64,000 nt of DNA from Phlyctochytrium arcticum (lineage: Eukaryota; Chytridiomycota; Chytridiomycetes; Chytridiales; Chytridiaceae): the NCBI GenBank assembly GCA_025602905.1, contig JAHLKI010000018.1, positions 1 to 64,000 of the forward strand, in the 5' to 3' direction. Below the pieces are notes generated by a model. That model saw nothing but the letters and a program-made list of their open reading frames with translations, was not told the DNA's origin and ran no database searches. Both the position numbers and the translations under genes were made by a program. Of the stretch, positions 52,029-60,653 are shown in pieces. Numbering within the stretch: the first letter of the stretch is position 1; each line of letters begins with the position of its first letter.

Positions 52029-53286
52029 TCAGGCTTGCTGAATCTTGACTTCCTCTGAATCACTCAAATCAACGCCTCGCCCGTTACCCAGCCGTCTTAT
52101 CCACCCAGCTATCCGATGGCCATACACGGCAGGTATCAGGGCCAAGACAGAAATGCTAATCAGCTTCAGCAACACGCCTATACTGAGAATGTCACTGAAC
52201 GAGTCTAGCTGGCTCAGTGTAGCAGCGGCTTGAACACATATATAGTTGTACGGCATCAAACCTGGACAATGGCATGAGTGTCAAAATAGAGGTGAAAGCG
52301 TAACTGACGTAGAACTTACCAAAGAATATGGACATGAAGAAGGGAAATATGGGCACGCCAACAAATGGGCTAGACATGTTCAGAAACCTTCACAAACCCC
52401 ATGTCAGCAAAGCAAATTCCCTCGCATACGCATTGAAAACAAACATTACCAATTGGGTGAGAATGGGAACAGGCGCAAAAACAAGAGATAATAGAATAAG
52501 TTGCCCTTTTCCCGGTTCGACTCGACTTTTCGACGCAGGGACAATAGATTTGATCGAGCGAAACGTTCCAGAACGAGCTCGCCAAGAAAAAGTTGCGATA
52601 GAATGTAGGAGAATGTCGAGCCCACGGCTGTTAGAAGTGACACCAAGGGAAAGGCCCAAAAACCGTATAAAACTCCGCCCAGTATATTCTAAGGTGAGTA
52701 AAGTCGATGCGTTTAGGAAAAGAAGTCTTCGTGTGAAGATGCTTAAACATACCATTAATGCGGATCCCGGAATCGCAAACGCTTGTTTAAATACAAACAC
52801 GACGGTAAATAAAATGAAGACGGGGGTAAAGTGCGCATCCGAGTATTGTTGTCTGCCAAAAGTTATATAAAATTTCAAGAATGTAAACGATGCAAGTAGA
52901 AATACGTACAATACAAGCGATTGGCTCTTGAGATCGTCAAAATTTCTTGGAAAATGAATGTCGGTGTCTGATGGTGGAAGGTTGACTGCCATCCGCCAAA
53001 TCATCAAGATGCCACCCAGGAAAATCAGCGCCGCGCCTCCGAGCCGGGCCGACCAGACCAAATGTCCCTTTTGCCGACGGATCGCAATTCGTGGATCTGC
53101 TGGTCCGGGTAAGAGCATGTCCTCGGATCGGGGACTGTCGGGAGACTCGGCGGATGGCGCGTAAGGGGATGGGGCCGAAAGAGGGCGGGTCTCGGGGGTA
53201 AAGGGAGGGATGAGTAGGGTGGTGTCGAGGGGTGCGTCTTTGAGAAATGTGTAGGATGCACGTCTGGCCAGTTTCACGCCGGTCAT
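52029..53286 (-). CDS. TMEM41 / VTT-domain membrane protein
   Basis: Five exons: 52910-53286, 52753-52852, 52450-52688, 52320-52387 and 52029-52261, giving 338 aa in agreeing phases. The N-terminal 95 residues are Pro/Ser-rich and cytosolic, followed by a TM segment (ARLGGAALIFLGGILMIW). The VTT (DedA/SNARE-associated) core is assembled across exons: FKQAFAIPGSALMNILGGVL, a re-entrant FPLVSLLTAVGSTFSYILSQ, the conserved RLFPFSPNWFLNMSSPFVGV, and GLMPYNYICVQAAATLSQLD. A final TM precedes a charged tail. TMEM41B/VMP1 relatives are ER lipid scramblases involved in autophagosome and lipoprotein formation. Yeast Tvp38 is a distant Golgi relative. Confidence 0.88.
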
Positions 53287-54209
53287 TGTTTGCTGGGAGG
53301 GGAAAACGGGCGGAAAAGTGCTCTTTCCGTCTAGTGCTTTTGCTCTATTGTCTATTGGGATTGCCCGTTGGGACCTGTGTGGCGACCGATGGGAGGTAGT
53401 GGATGCCGGCTACAAGGGTATGCAGCCCTCAGGAAGCCCCCTCACTAATGGTCGATGTACAGTGAAAAAGAGGTGGAGGCCAACTCGTTGCGCGCATTCA
53501 CGAAATCACAAGGTGCAGTTTGCAGCAATGCGTGTTTTTCCGACCTCTCTGAACAGTTGATGTTCTCCCACTCCTGCCAAGAGATTCTAATCGTCGCCTC
53601 AGGCCTTTTGCCCCACCAACTCGAAATCAAGCGCAATTATAAATCTGTCACGCGCCCAATAGCAGTCCTGAACGGATAAACCCAAATAACTGTGATCCAA
53701 ACGCACGCTCGTCCCTGACGGCTCCAGTAAAGTCGACCGAGATTGATTCCAAATTGTACGTATGGATGTGCTGGCTGAACGACGACGGCGAGAAGGGATG
53801 TTGCGAGCTTTTTGTTGGAGAACGTCTAGAAACTCGGACTCCGATTTCGCGCTCAAGTGATTGTGTGCACAGTCACCTTATCACGGACTTCGGCGCGCTG
53901 AAATTTGCCGGGCTTTGCACTTGAGGTAGGGTTCAGCCCTATGTCCAAAGGTGACATCAACTCGAATCCAGGAATCCATACTATATTCGCAAAGATTCGA
54001 ACCATTATTACATAATCACGATTACAGTGAAGCAGTGAAGGCAAGAGAGAGAGAGAAGAGAGAGATCGAGACAACCAGGGAGACGGACAGGGAGAGAGAG
54101 GGTTACGATGTTTAGTGCGTGCAACGACAAGTGACTTGTAAAAGATTGAGCAACTTACCATATCTGTATATTGATGGATGCACACCGTTCAGTGTGCCAT
54201 CACTGTGAA
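53287..54209. other. 3' flank of the Fanzor gene; possible location of its guide RNA
   Basis: No supported gene. It contains a GA-rich microsatellite (54036-54105) and, on the minus strand, a spliceable-looking GTAAGT just after the Fanzor stop (near 54.15 kb). In characterised Fanzor and TnpB loci the omega-RNA is encoded at or beyond the 3' end of the gene. I cannot see a defined structure by eye. Confidence 0.35.
54036..54105. repeat. GA-rich microsatellite
   Basis: A purine-rich tract of GA/GAGA units on the plus strand (AGAGAGAGAGAAGAGAGAGA and GGGAGAGAGAGGG), interrupted by short non-repeat bases. It lies just 3' of the Fanzor coding region. Confidence 0.75.
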
Positions 54210-57200
54210 CTAGTGCCACAGGTTGGGCGGTGGGGGTTGGTACGCAAATCCAGTAGGAACGTTCCAAGCTACTCGGGCCCCGCCATCGTGACAATACTTC
54301 CACAAAAGATGGCGCATGTCGCTCCCGGCGTTGATGTCTCTGTCGACAATAACACGCGCTGGTGGTGCTTGTGGTTGTTCATCGTTAGCACACGTAACAA
54401 AATACATCCATCATCAGTAACATAATTACCTTGCGCGGGCTGGTGCAGGATAATGGGGGTGGTGCGGCTCCGGCGGAGTCGGTGCAGGAGTACGCCTGGC
54501 TGAGGCGGGAGAGGGGGTAGATTGGTGGGGCAGGTGGACGTGAGGTGAAGGGGCATCCCCGGGTTCTGAGGGTCGTTGTCGGGGAGTGTGCAGTGGAGGC
54601 GAAGGCGATGGCCAGCAGGGGGTTGATGGCTACGACGCAGCCGCTTCTTGGGATGTTGGGTGCATCGCGGGACCTGCAGCCTGACGTCGTTGGTGAGTGG
54701 GAGGTTGGGAGAAGGCTGGCCCAACACAGTGTGCTCTTCAAAGTGGGAGAGGCCGGTTGAGTCGCGTTCGGTCGTCCCTTTCTCGGACATCATCACAACA
54801 GTGGCACCTTGGACCGCGAGCTCCCTGGCCAGGCTCTTGGTGGGTACAGAGCCGTGGCCCTTGGCCCATTTGAAATTCGCCCACCCACAAGCGATGAGAG
54901 GGGCTGGGGAAATCACTAATAGAGTCAAATTGAGTTAGTGCAATGAAGGAAATCATCGGAACTCAAAAGATTGACTTTACCTTGCGCATTGCCTGGCTGC
55001 AAATTGGCCGCGCGTCGTCGACTTTGGCGATCTTGCATGGCGTGGGACTTGCCAATGCGTCGCATCTGGTTGAGGAGGGGGACACCTTGCGCGTTGATGA
55101 AGGTGGGGTTGATGATGAAGCGGGCGGTGGTGGTTAACGCGCTCTGTCGAGCCGTCTCCCGTGTCAGGGTGCAGCGTTGGTAAAAGCCGCCCCGGAAATG
55201 CGTTCGCATTTAAACTAGTGTAGACCGTTTGAAGGTACGAAAGGGTATTTCTCAACCCCAATCCGTTCATCTCGTCACCTCTGCCGCGCAGCAGTTCAAT
55301 GGAGCCTGATATAGGAGGAAAGAAAAGAGTCAAGGCAAATCATGTAGTGGCCGAAACTACGGTCTTGAAGGATACGACTGACTGTGTAAAGTAGTCTTAT
55401 TCAAGAATATATGTATAGAGGGTTCTATACAAGCGACCTGCCCTTCCACCCTCTGAATCTCCGACGGTTCTTGATCCCGCCAAAAAACTAAGGTAACACA
55501 ACCTTCCCTAATCTATCTAAATTATGAAATCGAACAAACGCTAGAACAAACGCCCAACGCGTCTCCTACAAATCAGTATCAAGTATGGATTCGAAAACGG
55601 AACGCAAGTGAACGACCAACCTTGCACCCCATCTGCTGTCTGCCGACGAGCATCCTTCCTCTCAAACCATGCTGTGAGGCACTTTTCCCGATAGTGCCTG
55701 CCCCTCACGCGTGCGATTGCTTGGGAGCGCTGGTGGCGATGGCCTTGCCGTATGGTGGCGTCGGCAGCATTGGGCTGCTGGAGACGTTGTCGCGCACGGT
55801 CAGCCATAGAGCTCAGGTTGTCGGACACCGCGACTATCTGGAATTTTTGACCAAAGTCAATACCCAGAACACGTCTTGTGGCTGGCACCTGCACGGTTGG
55901 ATCAAATGGGCTGGGTGACGGTGGAAGTGGGAGGTGGATGACCCGTCCAGCGGGAGCAATCGGGCGTCGGTTGATGGCGAAAAGACCGCCTCCACTGACA
56001 TCCGGATTGTCAATGCGACGAAATTCCGCGTGGGCGCGTTCACCAAAGTCAGACAGTTCGGCAATCATCGGGATTCGCCCTAGGCAAAGACTTGTTTCAG
56101 AAAAGATGAGGAATACAACGTATGTCCAAGCTACTTACGTTCTCGTAGAACACCCCGACCCAGCACCTCAAAAGTGAGTTTTGCGATGTACCCATTCGTG
56201 ATCAGGCTCAGACGGGTGATTGGGATGAGGTGTCCTCCGCGCCGCAAGCAGTTCCGGCCTGCATGGTCAAGCGTCAGAAAGCGGGCTTTTCCCCGGTTGA
56301 AGATTTGGAAAAAGACATCCATTCGGGAGTTGTTGTCGTTGGGGAAATCTTTTCCATTCTTGGATAGGGCCCTAACCAATGCCGCCGCCGGATCCGTAAT
56401 CATGATGGGGGGATTAGCCCGACGACCCAGAATATTGCACAAGGCACGATAGTCAAACTGTACGTAACGCACTCCTCGTTTTGTCGCGCCGGGGCAGAGG
56501 GCAACATGCTCAAGGGAACGTCGCACCGGAGCTTGCACCGGACCTTGGACTTGTCCGGGCGGAGGGCGATGACTGGCCTCATACTGGGATAGCCATTCCA
56601 GCAGAGGAAGTAGATAATGGGCCCGGTTGTGCTTGCTACCCACAAACCGTTTCCACTTCCAAGCCGGGTTGGCATGTAGGTCGTCCTGCGCTGCCGCTTC
56701 AGACGTCGCCGCACTCCTGGGGTGGTTCGCCATCAAAATCTTCAACTGAGATCAACGTTGCGGCCCAAGTACTGAGTTCAATTATTGGTCTGTAATAAAT
56801 GCAGTAAGCATACATTCCAGGTCGCGTCGCAGCTGGAACACTTACTCCAAGAACTTGATGTAATTATCCTGTCGCGCGGTCGTCAAATGTAACCCAGCAA
56901 AAAGAATAACATTTCCTGACGTGATGGTATGCTCATCCACAGCGTAGTGAGTTGAGGTGCACAGGAAAAGCGGCTGCAGTAGAAGCAGCGTTCTTGCCAC
57001 TAGCGTTGAAAAGGTTAATTGATGAAACTGCATGGGAGAATAATGATTCTCAAATTCATACCAAGTCGGTCCCGTTCTCCAGCGGCAAGTCCCAAGTTAC
57101 CGTGATGCCTCAGCCAGTGGTTGATCGTTTGCTCGATATGATCTTCCGCGCTGTATGCCACATACGTGGTGAACGCTACCCTCATCTTTTTGGACTCAAT

Positions 57201-57751
57201 GGCAAACAGTTGTTCATGCTGAGTGAGCACATAATTTGGTTTTGTGTGCAGCGGCGCAGTGCCTTGGGCTGGACGATTGGGCACAACTGCATTAGCTGGC
57301 CAGGTGAAGTTGGCATGTTGCGCAGCGCCGAGAAAGTGATTGTTGGATGTAACGAGAGACGCAGGAACAGGGTTGGCGAGTGTACCGGGAGTGGGGATCC
57401 CTGCCGCGATCCGTAAGAGGTTGTTGAAGAAAATGTGACTGGACCCGCAACCGTCCAATGTCAGATTATCAGGCACCTTGAAATCTGCAGCACAAGCGAC
57501 AATTACTGATTGCTCTCCGACTCAACCGAATGACAAGACTTACCTCCGGGGTGTTGATCATCCGTGCAAGCTGATATAAACGCACCGGCTTGACGTTGAA
57601 AATGGACATGGGCCAAGTTCCAAGCATCGAAAATCGCGGCATCAACCTCCTCGACCGCATTGCAAAGAAGTGTTTCGACCTCGGGATGCCCGGTTTGGCA
57701 AAGACCCCTGAGTCGTCCCACGGGCCGAGTGATGTGATAACCGGTCGCCAT
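54210..57751 (-). CDS. Fanzor (eukaryotic TnpB-like RNA-guided nuclease), one frame break
   Basis: Eight exons by my model: 57544-57751, 57062-57484, 56846-56999, 56139-56716, 55621-56079, 54981-55305, 54430-54915 and 54210-54358, about 926 aa. All phases agree except one extra base inside exon 6 near 55.21 kb. The RuvC catalytic set is present: RuvC-I RRVLGIDFGQKFQIVAVSDN (D529); the ANFKWAKGHGSVPTKSLARE block before RuvC-II VVMMSEKGTT (E760); and RuvC-III VIVDRDINAGSDM (D885), the DRDxNA signature of TnpB/Fanzor. The N-terminal helical part has VEEVDAAIFDAWNLAHVHF, and later KWKRFVGSKHNRAHYLLPLL. No CxxC...CxxC ribbon separates RuvC-II and RuvC-III. Family members use an omega-RNA to cut DNA. 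Intron 5 (315 nt) is unusually long, and a possible 5' UTR intron is at 57819-57883. No flanking transposon ends were recognised. Confidence 0.85.
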
Positions 57752-58527
57752 GGTCGATGCAGATGGAGGGTTTGTGCAATCAGATCATGATGGTCGGGCA
57801 ACAGCAGCAGATGACGAGCTGCATAAATAAACCATTGAGAGGTCAATCATTGGAGAATTTGGTAGGATGCAAGACAAACTTACATAAAAAGTTCCGGAGA
57901 GGGGGTGGGCGCGATGAGCTCCGGGTCGCAAAGACGTAGGGAAGGGCGCAAGCCAAAAGCGGGGTCAGAAAACGGTCTTGTTGACTGAGAGCCGTCAAAT
58001 TTTATGAGCAAGTTCTCTAAATGCTTTAAAAAAAGTTAGTGATCCATCCGGTAAGCGTGGAAAAGCTACGTTAACCTACATGTTCAGAGGAAACTGGAAA
58101 GTTTCGAACGACAATGATGATTATCGGCAAATGTGTTCAAGGTTTCGACCGAACAAGGAAAACGACCGTTTTGCGGAGAAACGAGAGATCAGAGTTCGGA
58201 AATATTCTCCTGCAAAAAAGATCAGTTATGTGTTCGAAGAACTCGCAAAGACATTGTCAACCTACGTCGTCAAAACGAATGGGATATCCGGAGCAACAAA
58301 TTAAGATTCCGACGTGTTGTAAAGTGAACTCTGCTATAGATATACGGATTGGGCGTGAGGACTGCAACGGTTATCGAGGTTGTTCTTTTTGGTGAAAACC
58401 GTAAAGTATTCCAAAGGGAGCGTGAGGGAGGCCTCAACATATATACGTGTCGTTCTCCCCACAAACGTCTCCACAAGTAAAAAGACAGTGGGAAATTAAG
58501 GGAAACTAAGATCGCGCTTATTTCATA
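57752..58527. other. 5' flank of the Fanzor gene with a probable UTR intron
   Basis: On the minus strand 57819-57883 has GTAAGT at its start and TTTATGCAG at its end, a clean 65-nt intron just upstream of the ATG at 57751. The adjoining sequence is open (RHLLLLPDHHDLIAQTLHLH) but in another frame from the nuclease. It is therefore either a 5' UTR exon or an N-terminal exon displaced by another frame break. Nothing else is supported to 58.5 kb. Confidence 0.4.
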
Positions 58528-58680
58528 ACAGATTTCAGGTAATAGAAGGTCTTGCGCGTCGGAATGTTGCTGAGGTAAGTGACGCGTGCTGTCAGTTTTC
58601 TCAGCAATTTATTTTATTGACAGATTTCAGGTAATAGAAGGTCTTACGCGTCGGAATTTTGCTGTCAGTTTTCTCCTTGA
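58528..58680. repeat. Tandem repeat, unit about 92 bp, two copies
   Basis: CAGATTTCAGGTAATAGAAG followed by GTCTTRCGCGTCGGAATKTT occurs at about 58528 and 58621. Both copies end in GCTGTCAGTTTTCTC. The first copy has an extra segment (GAGGTAAGTGACGCGT). It is surrounded by AT-rich, gene-free sequence to 59.5 kb. Confidence 0.75.
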
Positions 58681-59558
58681 GGAGTACCGTAGTACCGTAT
58701 TGTATTATAACCATAGTTTATTTTTTTGGGGCGGAGATGCGGGCAACGAACCAATCCAGTAAGTACCATTCATGTTGCGTAAGAGAATTCGCACTATCTT
58801 GAAGATGTCAGTGGTACTCTTTTCGTCTGGGGCAGGCAAATCTCAGGCAGTACCAATTTCATTATGATATATAGGGAGGGAGGTAAGGGACTAAAGGGAG
58901 GGAGGTACCTCCGATAAACTTGGAGGCGTTGAAGCGTTACCATGATGCACCTTTCCTCGCAGACTTCCTTAACATGATGAAATCTGTTCGAAAAACTTCA
59001 CTTGCAGCAAACCGACGTTCTCTATACCGGTTTCTGCTAGTATTTGGAATGTCAAAATGCATGCTCTCCGGTGCTCTCCCATTTGGTAACGAGTGTAGTC
59101 TATGTATGTATATGTGTGAGTATGGTCAGACTTTTGGGGTTGATATATCTGGGAGCGGTATATGCTGCTCTATAGTGTCTGGCGCTGCGGGCGTCTGGAA
59201 CTGATAGACTAGAAGTTATGTGCTGCTCAAGTTGTTTGGAAATGCCTGGCAGTGATCTTAGGATCTCACGAGCTCGTGAGCTGGTGAATCTCAAGTTCTT
59301 AGGGTTCACGAGGTCATTTTACATAAGCTCCCACAAGTTTTTAGTTTTTAGCACAAAATTTCTTTGAGCAAGTCAGCTGACGCCTGATGAAACGCGAGCA
59401 GTAATGACTGGAATGACTGTTGCGGAGCGCTTGCCCGGAGCGCGATTATGTGGCCGGCACAGCATAATCAATTAAATCCATTGAAAAAATTCACAAATGC
59501 CCAAACATAATCAGGCCATATCAGAAAGGGACTCTGAGACTGACTGCTATCCTACAAG
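58681..59558. other. Gene-free stretch
   Basis: AT-rich sequence with short purine-rich direct repeats (GGGAGGGAGG at 58.87-58.91 kb, twice) and a palindromic CACGAGCTCGTG at about 59.27 kb. Open frames are short. No gene is supported. Confidence 0.4.
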
Positions 59559-59873
59559 GTACCTCTTAAGGACTGGTGTGAGGCGGATCGGATCAATGAT
59601 CACGCACTTTACAGCAAGCGGAAGTTGGTTGCGATGGAGGTCGAGTATTACAACGGTATGGAGCGGTTCAACAACATTTACTCTGCGGGTTTACCAGACC
59701 GCAACGGTAAACCTGTCAAAGGAGTAAAGTATTTGCCTACTCGGGAACTTCTTACGGCGATCAGGCAGCGTCGCACAGCTGAGGACCGGGAGGGTCAGAA
59801 GACCGATGAGAGGGTCAAGCAATTGCGACGCGAGAGGAGGAGCGGACCAGGTAACCCAGGTCCATCCCAGTAG
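59559..59873 (+). pseudogene. Terminal exon of an unidentified, possibly mobile-element gene
   Basis: After an acceptor-like ATCCTACAAG (59549-59558) the frame stays open for 105 codons to a TAG. It reads VPLKDWCEADRINDHALYSK, KLVAMEVEYYNGMERFNNIY and LTAIRQRRTAEDREGQK, and ends GPGNPGPSQ. The Trp-containing start, the Tyr-Lys-Arg-Lys helix and the charged tail recall the C-terminal DNA-binding (GCR1_C-like) domain found in fungal Crypton recombinases and their domesticated relatives, but the match is loose. I find no upstream exon, so this is a fragment. Confidence 0.35.
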
Positions 59874-60653
59874 TTGTCCGCCCATACCTTGGTAAGGTTG
59901 TAAGGTTGCTTGGTAAGTTGGTCATTTTGTTGCTTGGTGAGTTGGTTTTTGTCGGTTCTTAACCCGTTCGTCGTCTGCTACATGACGGCGGGTCTTTATT
60001 TTCTTTTCCCTTAGGGGACCCTCAGTTAGACTTGCTTCATGGCAGACGAGCAATTTAACTGTCAAGCTCAACAGCGGGGTAATGCACCGATGCCTAGTCA
60101 CAAGTCTGGGAGACCTTTCGAGGGGAAGTCAGAGTGATCCGCCCATCATTGTTTAACCTTGTCTGTCATTTGTATAATACATCAAACTTTTAACCCTGTC
60201 TGTCTTTTGTATAATACATCAAACTTTTGCTGCTCAAATTTTGTCGTTGTTGTCTCAATTATACCGTCTTGTCGTAGTTGTCTTAATTATACCATCTCTA
60301 TCCTTCGGCATCAAACAACAACCTTCAGATGAGCGGCGGTCATTGGGCCACTATGCACGTACAGATGATCCTTTCAATTTTTTTTGTTGCAAACAACAGT
60401 AAAGTTAAAGAGAGGATTTTTTTTTGTTCAAATCATTCAAACTATACAGCATATGGTTGATGTATTTGCATGTCCAGTCCGCCCTTGGGATGTCTGGCCA
60501 GCGATTAATCGTGGCCTATTTAACCCTAGCTTCGTTTGCCCAGTCCCGTTTATGTACTACAAAAAAGCCACACGCTATTGGAGCCACGCGGACCCCCAAA
60601 GCTCAGATTTGACATTTCAGCACTGGAAACGGTGAGGGAAGAAGGACATTGCC
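59874..60653. other. Gene-free stretch with short tandem repeats
   Basis: Contains TTGGTAAG/GTTGGT-type short repeats (59.89-59.95 kb) and the 37-bp tandem pair at 60154-60228. The right end should hold the promoter of the zinc-finger gene starting at 60654. Confidence 0.45.
60154..60228. repeat. Tandem repeat, unit about 37 bp, two copies
   Basis: CCTTGTCTGTCATTTGTATA and CCCTGTCTGTCTTTTGTATA each continue with ATACATCAAACTTTT. A second small pair follows directly (GTCGTTGTTGTCTCAATTAT and GTCGTAGTTGTCTTAATTAT, about 28 bp apart). Confidence 0.8.

Follow-up and report, generated by a model that had tools for sequence, protein, structure and literature searches.

The systems closest to the gene described here are the Fanzors, which have been delimited in the literature by a small set of sequence motifs. 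According to the relevant part of PMC10711439, Fanzors nearly always carry DPG in RuvC-I, and their fingerprint combines this DPG with an alternative glutamate placed six residues before the zinc finger; the Fanzor survey described there uses DPG and a CxxC zinc finger as its search motifs. The 2013 definition of Fanzor and TnpB, as worded in the corresponding section of PMC3627910, requires a C4 zinc finger, and the long motif given there reads D-X(125,275)-[TS]-[TS]-X-X-[C4 zinc finger]-X(5,50)-RD.

We compared with these systems a minus-strand gene at positions 54210 to 57751 of a 64-kb window of the Phlyctochytrium arcticum genome (31.48 Mb, 91 contigs), the window being the whole stretch of DNA analysed, bases 1 to 64000 of contig C18. 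Our preferred reading, to which we assign a probability of about 0.8, is that the window holds a recently inactivated copy of a mobile, intron-containing family whose intact 955-aa members carry a highly diverged Fanzor1-type RuvC domain and may be RNA-guided. The features on which the comparison draws are the following, in window coordinates.

60567..60589, minus strand: 5'-end motif of the element, a 23-mer with five exact places genome-wide (control, 0)
57752..59344, minus strand: 5' non-coding part of the element, common to copies on C43, C49, C5, and C1
57544..57751, minus strand: exon 1, with the start codon at 57751; homologous exon in copies L029 and L030
57062..57484, minus strand: exon 2
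56846..56999, minus strand: exon 3
56139..56789, minus strand: exon 4, recognised by homology to the intact copies, the frame being broken near 56.72 kb by a private one-base difference
55621..56079, minus strand: exon 5, with the RuvC-I motif GIDFGQ (codons from 55864)
55343..55575, minus strand: insertion of 233 bp in intron 5 that the closest copies, L029 and L030, lack
54981..55305, minus strand: exon 6, the frame being broken near 55.21 kb by a private five-base difference
54430..54915, minus strand: exon 7, with the RuvC-II motif SEKGTT (from 54787) and a C-x2-H...C...C set (from about 54667)
54210..54367, minus strand: exon 8, with the RuvC-III motif DRDINA (from 54344) and the stop codon
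54177..54201, minus strand: hairpin GATGGCACAC-TGAACG-GTGTGCATC just after the stop codon, kept across subfamilies as judged by eye
53981..54158, minus strand: candidate terminal intron, with a donor-like GTAAGT, a branch-like CACTAAAC, a pyrimidine tract, and an AG-free run, its AG lying at the element end
53979..54041, minus strand: fixed 3' end of the element; its last 44 bases do not differ among five gene copies and two solo ends

Read on the minus strand, the window has a start codon at 57751, a stop codon at 54212-54210, exons bounded by GT-AG introns, and the three RuvC motifs in order; the start, stop, exons, and motifs are those of the earlier sequence-only reading. The eight exons and seven introns that it drew are borne out by two near-identical intact copies on contig C1, L029 and L030, which encode complete 955-aa proteins through eight exons; the seven introns of L029 are all GT-AG and 56 to 82 nt long, and those of L030 have identical lengths. 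Exon-wise models of six other copies (L032, L035, L036, L037, L039, and L043) yielded no in-frame junctions. The public gene model at the window locus, P0006 (DFS34DRAFT_625702), has identical junctions into exons 7 and 8, starts downstream of RuvC-I, and omits part of exon 6; a structure model of this partial protein, built from a two-row alignment, had a mean pLDDT of 37 and was uninformative. The sequence-only reading had joined the motifs into one ordered protein, of which the motif order stands; the continuous frame does not, as the window copy carries frame breaks in exons 4 and 6.

This damage is visible in a three-way alignment of the window copy, L029, and L030 over 53979-57835, in which 3593 columns are identical in all three copies and private differences occupy 20 columns in the window copy, 8 in L029, and 2 in L030. 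The private changes of the window copy include one base in exon 4 and five bases in exon 6, both of which shift the frame, and its intron 1 is short by two bases relative to both siblings; at the two frame breaks and at the 233-bp insertion, L029 and L030 agree with each other. Read with the exon structure of its siblings, the window copy reaches a stop at residue 291 because of the private one-base difference in exon 4; an alternative splice acceptor bypasses this break, and the frame change in exon 6 remains. The exon-4 difference could be an assembly error, and the larger private differences are less likely to be so. Because its frame ends well upstream of RuvC-I, the window copy should be inactive. 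The 233-bp repeat in intron 5 has 40 matched stretches genome-wide, the window one included, and looks like a small non-autonomous transposon. Eight other places match it over approximately its full length at 94 to 100% identity.

Direct searches linked the gene to no described family. Neither the window exons nor the intact 955-aa copy matched TnpB or Fanzor in Pfam or NCBIfam, where other families were insignificant, and PDB searches by sequence and by profile returned unrelated proteins at best E-values of 0.43 and 0.25. A set of 5.8 billion proteins held no TnpB or Fanzor match among the 7,989 candidates scored (short models being excluded by length), and the only relatives of the family in this large set were three P. 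arcticum models (7,992 candidates scored). Short patterns matched 79 viral and 72 prokaryote stretches, none of which encoded a relative. The direct TnpB/Fanzor match anticipated for the spliced protein thus failed in Pfam, NCBIfam, PDB, and the large protein set alike. The genome has 15 matches to the zinc-ribbon family PF07282 (TNB), 13 of them above the cut-off; the window copy is not among them, and neither the window exons nor the intact copy gave such a match. By their domain matches, P. arcticum also carries ordinary Fanzor-type genes. One of these, L004 (C2:593041-596202), is of Fanzor1 type with a C-x2-C zinc finger and is 65% identical over the compared region to P0001, a bridge protein that matches the solved SpuFz1 (8gkh) at 2.1e-6; its relatives P0001 to P0005 show 55 to 65% identity.

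Profile comparison revealed what these searches did not. A profile of seven family rows matched that of a six-row chytrid Fanzor1 group with an E-value of 6.6e-5 (E-values here are one-against-one) and a score of 46.4, where the best of 100 shuffles reached 32.0. The RuvC region alone aligned collinearly from RuvC-I to RuvC-II (E = 1.1e-5; probability, 81.5; score, 45.9), pairing GIDFGQ of the family with GIDPGR of Fanzor1 and EKGTT with EYNTS; none of 200 column shuffles scored as high (best, 23.4), and the reversed control reached 15.3. When exons 7 and 8 were compared alone, the match covered RuvC-III together with the tail (score, 30.8; E = 3.2e-4; probability, 38.9; best of 100 shuffles, 24.7). 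With an alternative six-row alignment the score was 29.0 (E = 0.014; probability, 3%), a value surpassed by 1 of the 100 shuffles run for the seven-row profile. Two MULE controls and a TnpB/Fanzor2-like set, the latter consisting of three short sequences from the same genome, scored 15.0 to 16.5 against the family and thus gave no match; Fanzor1 scored 34.6 against the same TnpB/Fanzor2-like set. Together these comparisons support the family as a distant homologue of Fanzor1, by a link that we call good and not overwhelming because the alternative alignment gives only E = 0.014 and 3%. The proposed Fanzor relationship is in this way supported as distant Fanzor1 homology. We consider it quite unlikely that the family has nothing to do with Fanzors and encodes some other RNase H-fold transposase, or an unrelated protein with a chance likeness of motifs: the missing family matches in Pfam, NCBIfam, PDB, and the large protein set, the missing DPG and usual C4 zinc finger, and the low score with one alignment would all fit such a protein, but two separate Fanzor1 profile matches beat all shuffles and agree with the motifs of the triad (D, E, and D); the MULE controls were negative.

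The catalytic residues are conserved across the family even where the Fanzor hallmarks are not. In a search of 22 loci, broken copies included, the first catalytic D is present in 16 of the 17 loci that cover the motif (L031 has N), the catalytic E in 12 of 12, and the D of RD in 9 of 9; the full RuvC acidic triad claimed from the window alone is confirmed, with D-E-D kept in three ordered motifs. RuvC-I reads DFG in 15 of the 17 covered loci, DLG in L042, NFG in L031, and DPG in none. The glutamate stands in an E-x-x-T-T context, with an Asp and not a zinc-finger Cys at the six-residue distance: where the first zinc-finger Cys would stand, an Asp is invariant in 6 of 6 rows (D497 by first-row numbering). 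In the six-row alignment no C4 zinc finger occurs at the usual Fanzor place, and a C-x2-H...C...C set whose residues are kept in all six rows starts 33 residues further on (first row). Tested against the long motif, the D257-T493 spacing (first row) and the RD fit, and the C4 zinc finger finds no counterpart. Because RuvC-I is DFG and no C4 zinc finger lies at the Fanzor position, these residues mark the family as divergent Fanzor1-like and not as a textbook Fanzor; and since the published long motif is not matched in full, we file it as Fanzor1-like, not as a strict member. The DFG and the Fanzor-type place of the glutamate would also fit a second alternative-glutamate clade, set out in part of PMC10711439, and so a descent from the TnpB lineage with the alternative glutamate and D-hydrophobic-G instead of from Fanzor1. 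We hold this to be unlikely, if somewhat less so than a protein unrelated to Fanzors, given that the match to chytrid Fanzor1 extends over the C-terminal tail and that the TnpB/Fanzor2-like set from the same genome, though of three short sequences, was not matched.

The gene occurs in many copies with defined ends. A genome search with the RuvC-I exon found at least 26 matched stretches at 19 loci, the window included (loci grouped by us), and the RuvC-II exon has at least 15 matched stretches, both stretch counts being lower bounds; two of the RuvC-I matches, L029 and L030, are at 99% amino acid identity. Five gene copies, these two among them, stop at the base equivalent to window position 53979, beyond which the flanks diverge. 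A 22-mer of the 3' end occurs exactly seven times in the genome (five in gene copies, two solo beside MULE-type frames) and once more with three mismatches (control, 0). At the 5' end of the window copy, about 1.2 kb of other sequence (59345-60557) separates the 5'-end motif from the remaining element sequence, which picks up again at 59344; this is probably a nested insertion. The part of it that was searched has counterparts in repeats on C14 and C3. In L051 and L052 the left ends start with TACACGCC, and right ends close with ATAGTA; no single copy has both ends clean. The 5' ends in L051 (C3:1140250-1140700) and L052 (C4:1035200-1035650) start TACACGCCCAACATGG after differing flanks, and this shared start hints at a TA target. 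The 8 to 12 bp of 3' flank had no exact upstream repeat in the window copy, L029, L030, or L032, the search for target duplications in L036 gave one internal 8-bp match, none of eight pattern matches was an inverted 3' end, and terminal inverted repeats were not found; in several copies the true 5' end is missing or lies outside the fetched stretch. As judged from its copies and their ends, the feature belongs to a mobile, dispersed multi-copy family.

Pairwise comparisons of the coding sequence gave dN/dS of 0.27 (L029/L032), 0.29 (L034/L037), and, at a dS of 2.4, 0.11 (L029/L035); for the two youngest pairs, with 8 and 9 changes, the ratios were 0.55 and 0.84. Saturation affected two deeper pairs, and some of the copies compared are broken. 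This pattern suggests past purifying selection on the family and fits a functional protein through much of its history. Selection of this kind, together with the many exons and with other open frames flanking the gene on both sides, would also fit a host gene domesticated from a Fanzor and kept for a cellular role, at which the sequence-only reading had hinted. Domestication was nevertheless not borne out: the gene lies at 19 dispersed loci, two copies at 99% identity differ in their 3' flanks, and the window copy has two private frame breaks and a stop at residue 291. These findings describe a dispersed multi-copy element with a broken member at this site, and because of the copy number and the frame breaks we reject domestication as highly improbable.

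MULE-type transposase frames lie near Fanzor-like 3' ends at three loci (L040:6201-8459, minus strand; L049:617-1813, plus strand; L050, minus strand). The L040 frame is above the Pfam cut-off (PF10551), that of L049 is just below it, and L050 was recognised through DNA likeness to L040; in L040 the MULE transposase is downstream of the Fanzor-like element. L049 and L050 carry solo 63- to 73-bp copies of the element 3' end. A Fanzor1-carrying MULE/MuDR element is recognised by terminal inverted repeats and 9-bp target duplications. Mobilisation by MULEs was considered and not adopted, because the MULEs appear by eye to be bounded by separate ends and the searches turned up no target duplication.

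The element's conserved 3' end invites two readings. In the first, it would act, like that of SPu-1, as the scaffold of an omega-RNA whose guide lies in the flanking DNA; in favour of this are the fixed 3' end and the identity of its last 44 bases among five differently flanked copies and two solo ends. Folding did not support the omega-RNA that had been placed at 53.3-54.2 kb: the last 60 to 235 nt of the element have z between -1.63 and +1.56 against shuffles in five copies, with no excess structure, and Rfam gave no match in 53000-60000 up to an E-value of 1, which leaves a scaffold of this kind doubtful. The 64-kb window contains no tRNA. The hairpin after the stop codon has stems GCACAC/GTGTGC in six copies and GCACAG/CTGTGC in L040 and L043, and is shortened in L037; its inner pair has been altered on both sides, perhaps in a single event.

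The second reading takes the 3' end as a spliceosomal intron whose acceptor AG would be the element's last AG. A block ACAGA[AT]ATGGTA[AC]GTTG recurs across two subfamilies, in 8 of 9 rows (L043 lacks it), and is conserved although synonymous sites between the subfamilies are saturated; it contains, about 54 nt past the stop, a donor-like ATG/GTAAGT, whose counterpart in the second subfamily is GTACGT, and is accompanied by a branch-like CACTAA[AC]. The AG-free run before the last AG is 152 nt in the window copy and 109 to 154 nt in four others, and the chance of no AG by block shuffle is 0.0058 to 0.108 in the seven ends tested, which counts for a terminal intron; the run is short in L032 (58 nt) and L036 (46 nt), which counts against it. 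In the coding introns of L029, CTAAC occurs in 2 of 7, 17 and 19 nt before the end and not over 100 nt, and by eye the left end of the element has no clear donor. These distances are unlike those of the gene's other introns, and we rate a terminal intron very low. A second-subfamily solo 3' end, L055 (C6, around 1098911), shows likeness that begins, by eye, near the donor-like ATG/GTACGT. If the reading were true, splicing would excise the unstructured end, so that the post-stop hairpin came to abut the flanking DNA, and a guide RNA assembled by splicing would be the eukaryotic counterpart of the IStron idea. Among the 15 papers listed in a literature search on Fanzor and spliceosomal introns, two contain the word Fanzor and neither has a title on introns in Fanzor, which is no proof of absence in print.

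Returning to the preferred reading, of a mobile family related to Fanzor1, intact members encode a protein of 955 aa, in whose C-terminal half a RuvC nuclease domain of Fanzor1 type, highly diverged, keeps D-E-D. By analogy, this protein would bind RNA made from its own element, and its RuvC site would cut DNA matching the guide, on the model of the Fanzors characterised in part of PMC10432273; the cutting may serve the spread or retention of the element, as in other Fanzors. RNA-guided nuclease activity of the family is inferred from those Fanzors. A family in which the triad is kept and both hallmarks are changed would escape sequence rules that rely on DPG and the C4 zinc finger, and structure-based mining of the kind presented in PMC10432273 might detect it. 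It would also show to what extent a domain of Fanzor1 type may diverge without losing its nuclease site. Intact, near-identical copies in one genome make guidance and cleavage testable, and P. arcticum is a harmless, culturable saprobe.

With IStrons, which combine a group I intron with an IS element (as introduced in PMC4227781), the likeness is confined to the speculative splice signals at the element end; here those signals would be spliceosomal, and the reading concerns the right end alone, with a 3' splice site there. With the TnpB proteins that have the alternative glutamate and D-hydrophobic-G (the clade outlined in PMC10711439), the family has DFG and the glutamate context in common, and it differs in being eukaryotic, large, and intron-containing, with no direct TnpB match found. 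The chytrid Fanzor1 proteins have DPG where the family has DFG, and the usual C4 zinc finger is absent from the family; relative to SPu-1 and chytrid Fanzor1, terminal inverted repeats were not found and the 3' end is unstructured. In size, 955 aa over eight exons contrasts with the 633 aa and single open reading frame listed for SPu-1-1p in PMC3627910. The family nevertheless resembles SpuFz1/SPu-1 (8gkh) and P0001 to P0005 in its ordered D-E-D RuvC motifs, its E-x-x-[TS]-[TS], the RD before the last segment, and a similar C-terminal tail, and it resembles SPu-1, as portrayed in part of PMC10432273, in that one genome contains numerous copies, some full, some partial, and some reduced to an end.
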